Below, piece after piece: positions 15,555 through 21,218 of a stretch of 32,092 bases of DNA (positions within the stretch are counted from its first letter, which is position 1; every line of letters starts with the position of its first letter). The stretch is from positions 1 through 32,092 of the forward strand of contig JAGXSD010000012.1 in the NCBI GenBank assembly GCA_018333955.1. Reading direction: 5' to 3'. This DNA comes from Erysipelotrichia bacterium (GTDB lineage: Bacteria; Bacillota_I; Bacilli_A; Erysipelotrichales; Erysipelotrichaceae). The position numbers were made by a program, and so were the translations under genes. The notes under the pieces are model-generated. The model was not told the origin of the DNA. It worked only from the letters and a program-made list of their open reading frames with translations, and did no database searches.

Positions 15555-16823
15555 ATGAAAATACACGAGTTCTCATCATGGATTAACTTAAAAGAAACAC
15601 AACATCGACTCAGTGAGTTATATCCTTCTATTACGGAAGCACAAAAGCGTATGTCAAAAAGTCTGAATTCATTTACCTCGTATTTTCCTAATCACGATGA
15701 AATCGAACTTTTTAGTTCAAGTGGAAGAGTTGAACTAATCGGAAACCATACAGACCATCAAGGTGGTTTAGTTTTAAGTTGTGCTATTCATCTTGATACT
15801 TTAGCCATAGTTAGTCACAACCATGACCATGTCATCCAATGTATTTCAGATGGATATGAACCAATTTCAATACGTTGTGATGATTTAGCATATAGACCTA
15901 GTGAGCAACATACTACTCAAGCTTTACTCAGAGGTTGTTTAGCATTATTCTCACAACATTTTCCTATCCAAGGATTAGACATCTCTGTTGATTCTATTAT
16001 TCCTATCGGATCAGGATTATCTTCATCTGCGTCTTTTGAATGTTTAATACTTTCAATCCTTAATGTATATTTTGGGAATTCTAGCCTAACACCTATGCAA
16101 ATCGCGAAAATGGCCCAAAAAGTTGAGAACGTGTATTTTGGAAAACCAAGTGGATTATTGGATCAACTATGCATAACCCATGGCGGAGTAAATCTGTTGG
16201 ATTTTAGACTTGATACACCCTCGGTTACTCCAATACCGAACAATACATTGTTTGATGACTACGATTTGTGCATTGTGAAAACTAGTGATAACCATTCAGA
16301 CTTATCAAAGGCATATCAATCAATTGTGAATGATTATCAAGATATCGCACATTATTATCATCAAAAACGATTAGTCGATGTTGATGAATCCGTGTTTTAT
16401 TCAGATTTGTTCAAATTACAACAATATTTTCCATCTCAAACACTTCTTAGAGCTCATCATTTCTTTAGTGAGCAAAAACGCGTTATTAAAGCTTACGATG
16501 CATTACTTATCAATGATTTTCATTCGTTTCTTAAACAGGTGAATCATTCCGGTCATTCTTCTTTTGAATATCTCAACAATGTCTTACATCCGATGAGTAA
16601 ACATCATAATATAGCATTAGGACTTGCGTTGACTCAACAATATTTAAACGAGTTAGGTGCTTCTCGAGTGCATGGAGGTGGCTTCGCAGGATCATTTCTT
16701 GTCATTACTCCAAAATCAAACAGTGATTATCTTGATTATTTGTTAAGAAGCACACTCGGTGCAGAGAATTACATGAAATGCAAGATCAGATCTACAGGTG
16801 TAAAGTGGTTATCTCATAAATAA
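15555..16823 (+). CDS. galK: Galactokinase (GHMP kinase family)
   Basis: 422 residues. It phosphorylates galactose to galactose 1-phosphate in the cytoplasm. The galactokinase signature is GRVELIGNHTDHQGG (57-71). Note Asn in place of the usual Glu of the GEHTDY form, a variant typical of galactokinases from anaerobic Bacillota (from memory). The ATP loop is IPIGSGLSSSAS (149-160), the catalytic Asp is Asp203 in KPSGLLDQL, and motif 3 is RVHGGGFAGS near 374. It starts after AGGGGATCAAT and ends at a bidirectional terminator. It is divergent from the TetR/GH36 operon and completes alpha-galactoside use. galE and galT are not in the window. Confidence 0.94.
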   Translation: MKIHEFSSWINLKETQHRLSELYPSITEAQKRMSKSLNSFTSYFPNHDEIELFSSSGRVELIGNHTDHQGGLVLSCAIHLDTLAIVSHNHDHVIQCISDGYEPISIRCDDLAYRPSEQHTTQALLRGCLALFSQHFPIQGLDISVDSIIPIGSGLSSSASFECLILSILNVYFGNSSLTPMQIAKMAQKVENVYFGKPSGLLDQLCITHGGVNLLDFRLDTPSVTPIPNNTLFDDYDLCIVKTSDNHSDLSKAYQSIVNDYQDIAHYYHQKRLVDVDESVFYSDLFKLQQYFPSQTLLRAHHFFSEQKRVIKAYDALLINDFHSFLKQVNHSGHSSFEYLNNVLHPMSKHHNIALGLALTQQYLNELGASRVHGGGFAGSFLVITPKSNSDYLDYLLRSTLGAENYMKCKIRSTGVKWLSHK

Positions 16824-16843: not shown

Positions 16844-17297
16844 AATCATCATCGTCATCATCATCGTCATCATCATCATCATCGTCATCATCATCGTCAT
16901 CATCATCATCGTCATCATCATCGACTCTTTTTTGATATTCAGGGAAAACGTTACGAATACGTCGACGTAATACCACTAATCGATAAGCATCCACTTCAAT
17001 CACATGAACCTGATTATTTATCGAAACACTCACTTCATATACTAAAGGTTGTTGATTCAATCTTAAATTCACATGCTCGATTCGATCAACATCGAATTCT
17101 TGATTAATGAAATCAATCAAAACATCAAAAGTAATGATTTTTGGCTCACGTATTGAATTCACTTCATCCTCATCAAGAAGTTCAACTTGTGTAGGCAATG
17201 TTGCATTAAAGCTCGCAATTAAAACTGTATCAAGCACCATAAAAAGAGATACCATTAGTACTAAAATCAAAACTAAGTTCATAACTCTAGTCTTCAT
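16842..17297 (-). CDS. Membrane-anchored or secreted PepSY-like protein with a 26-Asp tail
   Basis: 151 residues. Residues 1-30 form a signal peptide or membrane anchor (MKTRVMNLVLILVLMVSLFM, then an Ala/Ser stretch). Residues 53-115 look like a single PepSY unit: a helix (FDVLIDFINQEF) followed by strands (PLVYEVSVSI, VHVIEVDAYR). A basic stretch RRRIRNV precedes the tail, which is nothing but 26 Asp from residue 126 to the end. PepSY domains are found in peptidase inhibitors and envelope-signalling proteins. Outside the cell the tail could bind Ca2+ or other cations, or basic peptides (inference). The start overlaps the AraC-type gene end by 11 nt, so the two are co-expressed. Confidence 0.85.
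   Translation of the reverse strand: MKTRVMNLVLILVLMVSLFMVLDTVLIASFNATLPTQVELLDEDEVNSIREPKIITFDVLIDFINQEFDVDRIEHVNLRLNQQPLVYEVSVSINNQVHVIEVDAYRLVVLRRRIRNVFPEYQKRVDDDDDDDDDDDDDDDDDDDDDDDDDD
16845..16922 (-). repeat. Trinucleotide tract encoding 26 aspartates
   Basis: Seventy-eight bases of GAT/GAC on the minus strand: 26 consecutive Asp codons, 21 GAT and 5 GAC, with the GAC codons scattered at spacings of 3 to 5 GAT. The tract ends directly at the stop codon. Slippage would change tail length without shifting the frame. Confidence 0.98.
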
Positions 17298-19038
17298 TGT
17301 GCTTCTCCTTGATTAATGTACGATATGATTCAACTGTCATATTGACACGTTGTTTAAATTGAGTATAGAAATATCGAGGTTCATTATATCCTACTGCCTC
17401 ACTAATCTCCTTCCCACTCATGGAAGTAGTTTCTATTAGCTCCTTTGCTTTATTGATTCGCATGGAGATAAGGTACTCATTCATAGCATTACCGTGAGTT
17501 TCCTTAAATACTTGTCTAATATACCCTAGTGAAAATCCACAAGCATCAGCTAATGCCTCAAAAGTGAAAGAAGAAGAATATCCATGATTTGACAGATAGT
17601 TCATTACTTCATTCATTAATATAGTTTTTGATGTTAAGTATTCACTTTGATAAATGTCTGAGTAATACACAATGTTTTGCTTATCTAAAGTATCCGCATA
17701 TTGTGCAGCAGCTAGTGCACTTCGATAAGATGCTCTTAATCCTTCAATCGATAAACAAAGATCACTAACACCTAATTTGGCACTTTGAATTTTTTCAAGT
17801 TGATTTAAATCTTGATCACGAAATACATAAGCAAATACTCCCTCTGACATTTTAATCCAACCATTGATCACTTTATTTTGTTGCGAAATAAGAGCAACCA
17901 CAACTCTAAGAGGAAACGTTATGAATGAAACATCAATATGAGGTTCAATCAACGATGAAGAAAACAGTGATTTTAATTGAGTGGATTGTTGAGTTAAATT
18001 TAAATCTACGAATGCTGATTCTATGAGTTCAAATTCATCTTTAGCATCATGATAATCTTGCTTTACAAATTGATGAACCATTGATTGAATTGGAGCATAA
18101 AAGCGTTGTGATAAAACATATGAAACGATTAAATTAATCAACACAAACACCATAAACAAGGCAATTATTATTCTATTTGCTGAGATAATGGTTGATTGAA
18201 TGACTTCATATGGAGTTACGTGGAAAAAGATTAGATTATAATTCTTCATTTTCGAATACACCATAAGTGATTGAGAATTATCAAACTGATTTAACACGAA
18301 TTTAGACTTTGCATCAATTTCAAGTGGATTTGAATAACTTAAGGAAGAAGGAAATGATTGGCCTAGCCACTGTTGTGCACTATCGGCGATGACCACATTA
18401 TCTTCATTAATTATTAGAATTTCATAATTTGAATTAGGTGCTGTAAATAATGAAGACAAAACATCATCATTCAAATGAATAATCATCAATCTATCCAGAA
18501 CCCCAACATCATCATAAGATGCAAGTGTTAACGCAAGCACATATGCTTGATTAATTTTTTGATGATGAAATAAGCGTGTTGGGTTTAATTGAAATGAGGA
18601 GAGTGTTTGATTTAAAGAGACTGTAAGTTCATTCTCAGCTAAATTTGTCAATAACCCACTCGCATTATTTGAATACACAACACTTCCTTCTGAGAGATTA
18701 TAATACAATATTGCATCAACCAATGGATCGGCTAAAGCAGTTTGAGAAAGAAATGTTGTTAGGTTACTAACACTAGTGGAATCAGCTATTGTGAATTGTT
18801 GAATAACAGCTTGTTCATTAAATAAAAACACATATTCTGAAATCAAATCATCCAATAATGTTTGTGTTCCTTGTGTTGCCACATTCAATGACTGTGTAGC
18901 ATTTTCGACACTTTGATCCACAAGAAAACGAGCCATAAGATGCGAAGTGAGTACTGATAGAATTCCTGTTAGGATAATCCCACTTAATCCAAAGGCGATG
19001 ATCATGTTTTTCTGTACACGACGTTGACGCTGAATCAT
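17287..19038 (-). CDS. Membrane-anchored AraC-family regulator with extracytoplasmic sensor
   Basis: 583 residues from ATG at 19038. Segment 1 (about 12-34) and segment 2 (about 288-310) bracket a roughly 250-residue extracellular region that resembles Cache/YesN-type sensors. The cytoplasmic part ends in a two-motif AraC helix-turn-helix (478-583: FEALADACGFSLGYIRQVF, then GKEISEAVGYNEPRYFYTQF). There is no receiver or kinase domain, so it senses and binds DNA in one chain. I rejected the longer reading from 19092 because it runs through the terminator palindrome. Neighbours on both sides are secreted PepSY proteins, so their abundance or ligand may be its signal (inference). Confidence 0.9.
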   Translation of the reverse strand: MIQRQRRVQKNMIIAFGLSGIILTGILSVLTSHLMARFLVDQSVENATQSLNVATQGTQTLLDDLISEYVFLFNEQAVIQQFTIADSTSVSNLTTFLSQTALADPLVDAILYYNLSEGSVVYSNNASGLLTNLAENELTVSLNQTLSSFQLNPTRLFHHQKINQAYVLALTLASYDDVGVLDRLMIIHLNDDVLSSLFTAPNSNYEILIINEDNVVIADSAQQWLGQSFPSSLSYSNPLEIDAKSKFVLNQFDNSQSLMVYSKMKNYNLIFFHVTPYEVIQSTIISANRIIIALFMVFVLINLIVSYVLSQRFYAPIQSMVHQFVKQDYHDAKDEFELIESAFVDLNLTQQSTQLKSLFSSSLIEPHIDVSFITFPLRVVVALISQQNKVINGWIKMSEGVFAYVFRDQDLNQLEKIQSAKLGVSDLCLSIEGLRASYRSALAAAQYADTLDKQNIVYYSDIYQSEYLTSKTILMNEVMNYLSNHGYSSSFTFEALADACGFSLGYIRQVFKETHGNAMNEYLISMRINKAKELIETTSMSGKEISEAVGYNEPRYFYTQFKQRVNMTVESYRTLIKEKHNED

Positions 19039-19044
19039 AGTTTC

Positions 19045-19050
19045 ATTATA
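19045..19050 (-). promoter_or_regulatory. -10 box of a possibly leaderless AraC-gene transcript
   Basis: A perfect TATAAT ends 6 nt before the ATG at 19038, placing the predicted transcription start on the start codon itself. No good ribosome site is present and the -35 is poor. Confidence 0.35.
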
Positions 19051-19062
19051 CCTTATATTTTT

Positions 19063-19090
19063 TAAAAGAGGGTGGGCATGCATGCCCACC
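19063..19090 (-). terminator. Palindromic terminator after the four-PepSY gene
   Basis: GGTGGGCATG and CATGCCCACC form a perfect 20-bp palindrome starting 8 nt after the PepSY gene stop. CTCTTTT follows on the minus strand, so the U tract is modest. It probably separates, or partly attenuates, the downstream AraC-type gene. Confidence 0.65.
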
Positions 19091-19097
19091 ATATTGA

Positions 19098-20093
19098 TTA
19101 ATCATCGATTTCAAATTCTAAGATAGTTCCATCTATTCCATCAATTTCAAACTCATACTCAATATCATCAGACTTAAACTCAATATCATAATATGGATGA
19201 CCATCATCATAATCTAATTCTAGTTTTATCAGTACTGGGGCATCTCCAATACGAATACGGGCAATCTCGATAGCACGTTCTTTTGAGATCATAACGATTA
19301 ATTTGACATTTGAACTACTGTCATTTGAATCCATACTAGAGTCATCTTGACTTACTTGTGAACTAGAACCAGAGACTAAATCTATTATATCCCAGTCCTT
19401 GATTTGACCCGTAACAGCATCCACTTCTGCTTTGATTTTAGAATCCACTGATGAAAGAGTGACGTAATATTCTTGATCATCATTATCAAGCTCAACACTA
19501 ATGACAACGTAAGAAGTTCCAGCACGTTCTAATACAATACGTTTTACTTCATCAATAGAAATAAGATTCGTAACTTGACTCACTAAACCTTCTGCTTCCC
19601 ATTTGATAATTTCACCAGTTTTTGCATCAATCTCTACTTCAATCTTAAATCCTTCAGAAAGTAACGTAATCTCATATTCTACATCATCGTCATCATCATC
19701 CAGCTTAATTTCAATGAGAGAAAATCCTTCTCCTGCTCGATTAAGAGCAATGGCTTTCGCCTCTTCAACTGAGATCAGATCTCCATGTCGAATCCATGTA
19801 ACATCCCAATCATCCACAACTCCAGTAATAGCATTAACATCCACTTCGACTGACTTCTCATTATTAACTAAAATAATCTCATACTCACGATCATCATCGT
19901 CTAATTTAACACTTACTAATTCAAACACTTCATCGGTATAATTCATCGCAGCATCAATGGCCTCAGCCTCAGTTATGAACGAAGTGTTAATACTTGTTGT
20001 AAAGATTGGTGAGTTTGCTAGAGCAGGGACTAAAGTTAATCCTACAAATAACCCAGCAAGTATATACATACTATTTCTTATCCATTGTTTCAT
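19098..20093 (-). CDS. Secreted four-repeat PepSY protein with Asp clusters
   Basis: 331 residues from ATG at 20093, chosen for its AAAGGAGG site 6 nt upstream. The signal peptide ends near ALA-N (residue 27). Four PepSY-like repeats lie at about 40-96, 106-164, 178-234 and 268-331, each with the helix-strand-strand-strand order and a D-x-x-TG turn (AITG, AKTG, AVTG, GIDG). In every repeat the first hairpin carries an acidic run (KLDDDDRE, KLDDDDDD, ELDNDDQE, ELDYDDGH). A Ser/Asp-rich linker (241-262) separates repeats 3 and 4. No anchor is seen, so it is exported. The regular acidic loops suggest cation binding (inference). A hairpin follows, then the AraC-type regulator. Confidence 0.88.
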   Translation of the reverse strand: MKQWIRNSMYILAGLFVGLTLVPALANSPIFTTSINTSFITEAEAIDAAMNYTDEVFELVSVKLDDDDREYEIILVNNEKSVEVDVNAITGVVDDWDVTWIRHGDLISVEEAKAIALNRAGEGFSLIEIKLDDDDDDVEYEITLLSEGFKIEVEIDAKTGEIIKWEAEGLVSQVTNLISIDEVKRIVLERAGTSYVVISVELDNDDQEYYVTLSSVDSKIKAEVDAVTGQIKDWDIIDLVSGSSSQVSQDDSSMDSNDSSSNVKLIVMISKERAIEIARIRIGDAPVLIKLELDYDDGHPYYDIEFKSDDIEYEFEIDGIDGTILEFEIDD

Positions 20094-20155
20094 ATTGACC
20101 TCCTTTGGATGAATCAATCATATTTAATTCCAGCTTTTCCAACAATACAAATGGC

Positions 20156-20222: not shown

Positions 20223-20243
20223 AATTATTGTTTTACAATAATT
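20223..20243. promoter_or_regulatory. Palindromic operator 1 of the membrane protein/XRE/lipoprotein operon
   Basis: Perfect 21-bp palindrome with arms AATTATTGT and ACAATAATT around TTT. It covers the predicted -35 box. Its partner with identical arms is at 20265-20285, 42 bp away centre to centre. Confidence 0.7.
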
Positions 20244-20256
20244 TATAGTGTATGAT
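20228..20256 (+). promoter_or_regulatory. Promoter of the membrane protein/XRE/lipoprotein operon
   Basis: TTGTTT (20228-20233), 17-bp spacer, TATGAT (20251-20256). The -35 lies inside operator 1, and operator 2 falls at and after the expected start point. Confidence 0.5.
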
Positions 20257-20264
20257 TAATTCAT

Positions 20265-20285
20265 AATTATTGTAAAACAATAATT
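20265..20285. promoter_or_regulatory. Palindromic operator 2 of the membrane protein/XRE/lipoprotein operon
   Basis: Perfect 21-bp palindrome with the same arms as operator 1 and AAA in the centre. It runs up to the TTGGAGG ribosome site of the first gene, so a bound protein would block transcription just past the start point. Confidence 0.7.
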
Positions 20286-20294
20286 GGAGGCAAT

Positions 20295-21218
20295 ATGATA
20301 CGACACTTCAAAATAATTGTATTTGGACTTATCTTATTAGGCTTAGGAGTTTTATTCTTCGATGCACCCCCAATGAACACTCTTTTAGTATCTATTATCA
20401 GCTTTCCATTGACTATTTTGATTAAACTACTTCGTTTCTTATCACTTTCAAATCCAATATTGAATATCGTTGCTTGGCTTATTTTCATCATTATTGGGCT
20501 TATCCCCCCATTGATTTATTTTCTTTTTGTACCAAAGCAAAAAAGAATCTATAATCTGATGCTTTCTTTCCTATTTAGCTTATTTTTCTATGGAAGTGTG
20601 TACGGTGTACTGAATTACTCATTTGTGAAACCGATGATGCCCTATGAAAATATTGAACCTGTTTTACTATTCTCCATGAGCATCATTCTTATCAGTTTAA
20701 TTCTAGTAAACTTACTTATTTCTAATCTCCATCATTTCGTAAACTCTAACAGTAGTTTTAAACTACTCCAACTGATTTTACTTATAAGTAGTTTTGTGAT
20801 GGCATTAACACTTTTCCTTCCCTATGCTTCTTTATTCAAAAATTGGGATGGTTCATTGGATCATTTCATGCAGTTTTATCATCTTGTCTTTAACTCCTGG
20901 TTAACTCTACTTCTAATATTCATATTTAAAAGAATCATTGATCTCATAGATGTGATAAAGATTAAAACTTTCTCTAATGAATGTATCCCTTATCTAAAAA
21001 CCCTACAATCAAGTTCATTAATGTTATTTTTCTCATCATTAGGTGGTCCTCTCTTTTTTGGAATAGTAAGTTTTAGTTTGTATCAATCTCTCAATCATGT
21101 GAATATTTCAATTCAGTTTCCTTGGTTTGAAATGATTCTGGCCATTTTAGTCATCACCTTATCGACTGTTTTAACTGCAGGCGTTGAAACGACTCAAGAG
21201 AATGAAGGATTTATCTAA
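20295..21218 (+). CDS. Polytopic membrane protein of unknown function
   Basis: 307 residues with about eight hydrophobic segments and short loops; few charged residues. It starts after TTGGAGGCAAT. I do not recognise a family with confidence. The gene order, a multi-pass protein followed at once by a small XRE regulator, recalls DUF2975/YozG pairs of Bacillota, but this protein is longer than typical DUF2975. The last base of its TAA is the first base of the next ATG (TAATG), so the XRE gene is translationally coupled. Together with the lipoprotein this looks like a membrane-sensing unit controlled by its own repressor (inference). Confidence 0.8.
   Translation: MIRHFKIIVFGLILLGLGVLFFDAPPMNTLLVSIISFPLTILIKLLRFLSLSNPILNIVAWLIFIIIGLIPPLIYFLFVPKQKRIYNLMLSFLFSLFFYGSVYGVLNYSFVKPMMPYENIEPVLLFSMSIILISLILVNLLISNLHHFVNSNSSFKLLQLILLISSFVMALTLFLPYASLFKNWDGSLDHFMQFYHLVFNSWLTLLLIFIFKRIIDLIDVIKIKTFSNECIPYLKTLQSSSLMLFFSSLGGPLFFGIVSFSLYQSLNHVNISIQFPWFEMILAILVITLSTVLTAGVETTQENEGFI

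Follow-up and report, generated by a model that had tools for sequence, protein, structure and literature searches.

The stretch of DNA analysed here (hereafter the window; 32,092 nucleotides) is one entire contig, C12, of a 1.81-Mb Erysipelotrichia bacterium genome in 64 contigs. It contains a predicted promoter bearing two palindromes, downstream of which lie three forward-strand genes that overlap or touch one another. The first encodes a membrane protein of 307 aa (P0002, 20295–21218), the second an XRE regulator of 77 aa (P0001, 21218–21451) and the third a predicted lipoprotein of 271 aa (P0003, 21438–22253). The stop codon of P0002 overlaps the start of the XRE gene, and the XRE protein is predicted here to be an autorepressor acting on the two palindromes.

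P0001 belongs to the HTH_26 family (PF13443), which it matches over residues 6–66 with 74.5 bits against a cut-off of 22, and a search among solved structures of XRE relatives returned one weak match, 3tyr (E 0.002). P0002 is all-helical in the predicted model and ends in the sequence QENEGFI. Searches of Pfam and NCBIfam assigned no family to P0003, and a fold search against the PDB with models of P0003 and P0002 gave no match at E 0.001 or better and therefore pointed to no function for either. The same two family collections revealed no known type II toxin–antitoxin toxin partner adjoining the XRE gene, in either P0002 or P0003.

Divergent from the operon, on the reverse strand, lie genes encoding a protein with several PepSY domains (19098–20117) and an AraC-type regulator with a long N-terminal part (17287–19092). 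Elsewhere in the window, a galactokinase-like GHMP kinase (15555–16823) scores well below the NCBIfam galactokinase cut-offs.

Palindromes and predicted promoter of the operon

The two palindromes, which are assigned to neither strand, are designated O1 (20223–20243), reading AATTATTGT-TTT-ACAATAATT, and O2 (20265–20285), reading AATTATTGT-AAA-ACAATAATT. Both have 9-bp arms, match the palindrome pattern with 0 mismatches and are conserved in relatives; their starts are 42 bp apart, and the 21-mer of O1 is the exact reverse complement of that of O2. An initial annotation of this DNA had reported two perfect 21-bp palindromes 42 bp apart, and their coordinates, arms and spacing were all confirmed. 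With up to three mismatches allowed, shuffled versions of the window contained 0.23 palindrome matches on average, compared with the two perfect ones observed.

Many genomic copies away from promoters had been named in that annotation as evidence against an operator. The genome scan did not find them: O1 and O2 are the only matches with up to two mismatches in the whole genome (1,811,363 bases, 64 contigs). At three mismatches there were four other matches, and the reversed-pattern control also gave four. No wider regulon was seen in this genome, in which sites matching a looser core with up to one mismatch stood at background level (19, compared with 15 for the reversed core). One further perfect match to TTATYG-N5-CRATAA, the core considered below, is present in the same genome on contig C56 (5279–5295).

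Between O1 and O2 lies a predicted −10 hexamer, TATGAT (20251–20256, forward strand), and such a hexamer is also present in most of the corresponding gaps of relatives. A weak −35-like sequence, TTGTTT (20228–20233, forward strand), can be read from the sequence inside O1, 17 bp before the −10; a consensus promoter scan did not report the TTGTTT/TATGAT pair. Transcription would start near 20263. Relative to this predicted start point O2 covers approximately +3 to +23 and abuts the ribosome-binding sequence GGAGG (20286–20290, forward strand), which directly follows it and precedes the ATG of the first operon gene at 20295. The second palindrome runs from just after the predicted start point to the ribosome site, much as had been proposed. 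The companion proposal, that O1 covers the −35, is plausible, although the −35 is weak and was missed by the consensus scan, and the −10 is better supported. A −10-like hexamer (at least five of six matches to TATAAT) occurs in the gap between sites at 14 of 15 loci with a 41–43-bp spacing, mostly 8–9 bases into the gap, compared with 4.86 of 15 for shuffled gaps; this count used 15 of the 16 gaps, the second gap of locus L081 being left out. With O1 on the −35 side and O2 at the start point, the predicted layout is a blocking arrangement.

Conservation and spacing of the sites

The palindrome, with up to one mismatch, was present in 26 of 272 genomes of the family, compared with one for the reversed control, and in 19 of these 26 it lay beside an XRE relative. 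In the other seven (G009, G095, G175, G241, G242, G246 and G270) the sequence retrieved around the palindrome showed no XRE relative. Close relatives of the XRE protein (at least 56% identity) occurred in 19 of the 272 genomes, that of the window included, and the operator core lay upstream of the gene in all 19. A pair of operators was visible upstream in 17 of these, with a spacing of 42 bp in 12, 41 bp in three, 43 bp in one and 33 bp in one; 42 bp is the spacing form of the window's clade. In the two unpaired cases the locus is cut by a contig end (G268) or has a single site (G180). Across these loci the membrane protein drops to approximately 20% identity, and the XRE protein only to approximately 56%. 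Neither the palindrome nor an XRE relative was found in G265, a genome of the same genus that is 83% complete. Three loci (L081, L082 and L084) carry a third, weaker copy of the site (TTATTGTACAAACATAA or one further change) about 43 bp upstream of the pair.

We also performed an unbiased search for every 6-base inverted repeat, with spacers of 0–14, upstream of 69 non-redundant XRE genes, a set that reaches to far more distant XRE relatives. The top repeats were AATTAT-N9-ATAATT, upstream of 31 genes, and TTATTG-N5-CAATAA, upstream of 24, both of which are parts of the O1/O2 palindrome; the counts were 0 in downstream flanks and 0.25 in shuffles. A larger set was assembled by fetching XRE loci for part of the matches only (the best first in each search, plus chosen lists), and 172 loci were reduced to 137 by removing those with at least 95% identity to another or with fewer than 400 bases upstream. 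TTATYG-N5-CRATAA was found perfect upstream in 92 of these 137 loci (0.1 in shuffles) and with up to one mismatch in 120 (5.1 in shuffles), and its arms occurred at any of 12 other spacers in at most one locus. A site with 11 of 12 matches was absent in 17 loci, five of which have a perfect site once either A or T is accepted at base 4. The site pair was first noticed at a single promoter; its sites belong to a broad family that extends beyond that promoter.

Fourteen plasmid loci were fetched later, hand-chosen from 159 records with most Klebsiella, Streptomyces and Priestia records left out; six of the 14 had a perfect core, and eight, from Bacillota, Bacteroidota and Pseudomonadota, had at least 11 of 12 matches. 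Two Streptomyces plasmid loci carried a shifted perfect palindrome, CTATCG-N5-CGATAG, an Edwardsiella locus carried TTAATG-N5-CATTAA, and a Novosphingobium locus had a weak site (10). No site above 10 was present in the Methylosinus plasmid locus, where a DUF2975 gene is annotated at only 366 bases and an IS transposase lies upstream, or in the Phocaeicola plasmid locus, which is without DUF2975. Among viral contigs, no XRE relatives were confirmed.

The sites recur at discrete distances from one another. Taking the best-scoring site in every one of 120 loci as the anchor, and counting as a partner any site with at least 9 of 12 matches, we obtained 74 counts at 21 bp, five at 31 bp, eleven at 42 bp and five at 43 bp, with approximately 0.7 expected per distance. 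These distances are close to two, three or four helical turns, as predicted for dimers on the same face of the DNA. A scan of trial periods gave a broad peak near 11, not a sharp one at 10.5. A hidden middle site at 21 bp in the loci with 41–43-bp spacing was considered and was not seen (mean score 4.7, compared with 3.9 at random).

We scanned the contigs of 84,980 species genomes for pairs of cores spaced anywhere from 20 to 50 bp apart and identified 20 paired-core loci, 16 of which have an XRE relative in the operon. These 16 come from Erysipelotrichaceae, other Bacillota and Bacteroidota such as Winogradskyella, with spacings of 21 (one locus), 31 (four), 41 (three), 42 (five) and 43 bp (three). 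The other four (L054, L061, L063 and L066) have no XRE gene in the operon, and the pairs at L061, L063 and L066 were set aside as resembling short tandem repeats. At L054 (2447–2503), from a Bacteroidaceae genome with no XRE relative at E 1e-6, two cores lie 42 bp apart with a partial core between them.

The XRE protein as probable reader of the sites

In a search that did not constrain base 4 of the half-site, a change from A to V at residue 30, in the recognition helix, goes with a change from T to A at that base: 17 of the 21 V30 loci, and 1 of the 88 others, carry TTAAYG in one or both half-sites, so that the exceptions are four of the 21 V loci and one of the 88. When 68 XRE positions are ranked by association with bases 4 and 5 of the half-site, residue 30 comes first; by eye it aligns with Gln29 of the 434 repressor, which we take to be a base-contacting position. 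On a tree of 135 of the 137 loci, 109 of them with a site, the independent changes are few: the tree-corrected test yielded two independent pairs on supported branches, 1.3 in the same direction and 0 opposite, which is not significant and leaves the test underpowered, and shared descent may lie behind the association.

The initial annotation had taken the XRE protein of the operon as the simplest reader of the palindromes. Sequence comparison supports this, through the core found upstream of every one of the 19 close XRE genes, the inverted repeats recovered on the upstream side only, the residue–base association and the partner distances of about two, three and four turns. We consider it probable (roughly 0.85) that O1 and O2 together form the operator of the HTH_26 protein, the product of the second gene, which would autorepress the operon. 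One XRE dimer would bind each palindrome, and the two dimers would be aligned along one side of the helix with four turns between them, perhaps cooperatively. The dimer on the −35 side and that at the transcription start would close the promoter between them, and the XRE protein would in this way keep its own operon (membrane protein, XRE and lipoprotein) low and self-adjusting. In its arrangement the locus corresponds to a paired-operator autorepressor, with a matching pair of palindromes aligned on one side of the helix at the regulator's own promoter.

A role for the XRE protein as an activator or switch at these sites, instead of a simple repressor, is the least improbable of the alternatives, although we still regard it as unlikely. 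O1 overlaps the −35 region, a position from which activation by some regulators occurs, and a −35 so weak that the scan missed it would suit such a role; the position of O2, over the predicted transcript start and up to the ribosome site, is however that of a block, and the −10 is close to consensus. We give very little credence to the palindromes being bound by another regulator, either a global AT-rich-site protein or the AraC-type protein encoded at 17287–19092, with the XRE gene a mere neighbour. The AraC-type and PepSY genes do lie divergently upstream, and XRE binding is itself a prediction, but these two genes, kept in both same-genus loci tested, are replaced in the six loci tested from other genera, in which the XRE operon nevertheless retains the operator. 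Moreover, the pair occurs only once in the genome, unlike the sites of a global regulator, and the site varies together with the XRE recognition residue.

The chance is slimmer still that O2 and its twin are maintained as leader RNA hairpins that hide or expose the ribosome site, and not as DNA sites. A hairpin would fit O2, which follows the predicted start point, precedes GGAGG and has arms able to pair into a 9-bp stem closed by a 3-nt loop. O1, however, lies upstream of the predicted start point, and conservation extends to the sequence itself, beyond mere pairing. Where position 5 of a perfect site is C in one arm and T in the other, the RNA-pairing version is just slightly commoner (22 U·G compared with 16 C·A), and in many relatives with a pair 21 bp apart tens of bases separate the end of the best site from the start codon.

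Paired operators are already familiar among autorepressors of the Cro/CI type. The repressors of phages 434 and lambda are Cro/CI-type HTH dimers that act on sets of short palindromes over a promoter, and the window, by analogy, also combines a Cro/CI-type HTH protein with short palindromes set over a predicted promoter. It differs from the phage systems in that the 77-aa XRE protein has no second, oligomerising domain, in its spacing classes of 21, 31 and 42 bp, and in an operator that would serve one operon and not a phage switch.

The membrane protein and its conserved tail

In 131 of the 137 loci an open reading frame of 80 aa or more terminates close to the start of the XRE gene. Among ten such counterparts of P0002 from other loci, seven pass the cut-off for DUF2975 (PF11188), one falls just below it and two have no match. 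P0002 occupies the usual DUF2975 place, but it matches no Pfam family and is not itself DUF2975 by Pfam; the window's genes are recognized as a DUF2975–XRE gene pair by the helical protein preceding the XRE gene and by its tail. YoaS is presumably a DUF2975 protein, and we take YozG to be its partner in Bacillus subtilis. A gene pair of Xre and a 'YoaS-like' membrane protein, described as a 'likely permease' and counted at 32 occurrences, has been listed and, in that listing, set aside as not toxin–antitoxin (Makarova et al., 2009; PMC2701414). Like that pair, the window has an HTH_26 XRE gene directly after a membrane-protein gene; it differs in that the membrane protein is longer and diverged, without a Pfam match, and in the added lipoprotein gene. 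In open-licence PubMed Central papers we found no description of the operator or regulation of the XRE–DUF2975 pair.

The tail analysis used 126 of the 131 upstream proteins, P0002 included, and the QENEGFI of P0002 resembles their common tail. In most of them the consensus is approximately [LI][QK]xE[NQ][DE]LT[IV], with Glu at −6 in 107 of the 126, Thr at −2 in 96 and Ile, Val or Leu at −1 in 124. Some upstream open reading frames have no tail (for example L098, L187 and L236). Among the membrane proteins that precede XRE genes (20295–21218 in the window and counterparts from L075 to L246) the tail is common and the remainder highly diverged. Of the 122 loci with a tail, 110 had a site matching the core at 11 or more of its 12 bases, as did 10 of the 15 without.

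The conserved tail suggests control of the repressor by the membrane protein; it would face the cytoplasm and touch the XRE protein. We offer only tentatively, and at clearly less than even odds, the broader idea of a module, present in four or more phyla, whose small membrane protein would use its C-terminal tail to retain or free its own repressor. A change at the membrane would then free or block dimers acting on the shared operator code TTATYG-N5-CRATAA, in pairs two, three or four turns apart. For a gene pair that is widespread in bacteria and whose membrane component is a domain of unknown function, the comparison provides a predicted operator and a spacing rule. It also points to a residue that may contact the DNA and to a tail that may connect the membrane with the repressor, and with the operator in hand any genome can be searched for targets of such a regulator.

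At the nucleotide level, synonymous codons vary in the tail, and therefore the protein is what is kept; for the same reason a disguised ribosome site is unlikely as the cause of the tail's conservation. In the window, a GAAGGA within the tail may also serve the XRE start.
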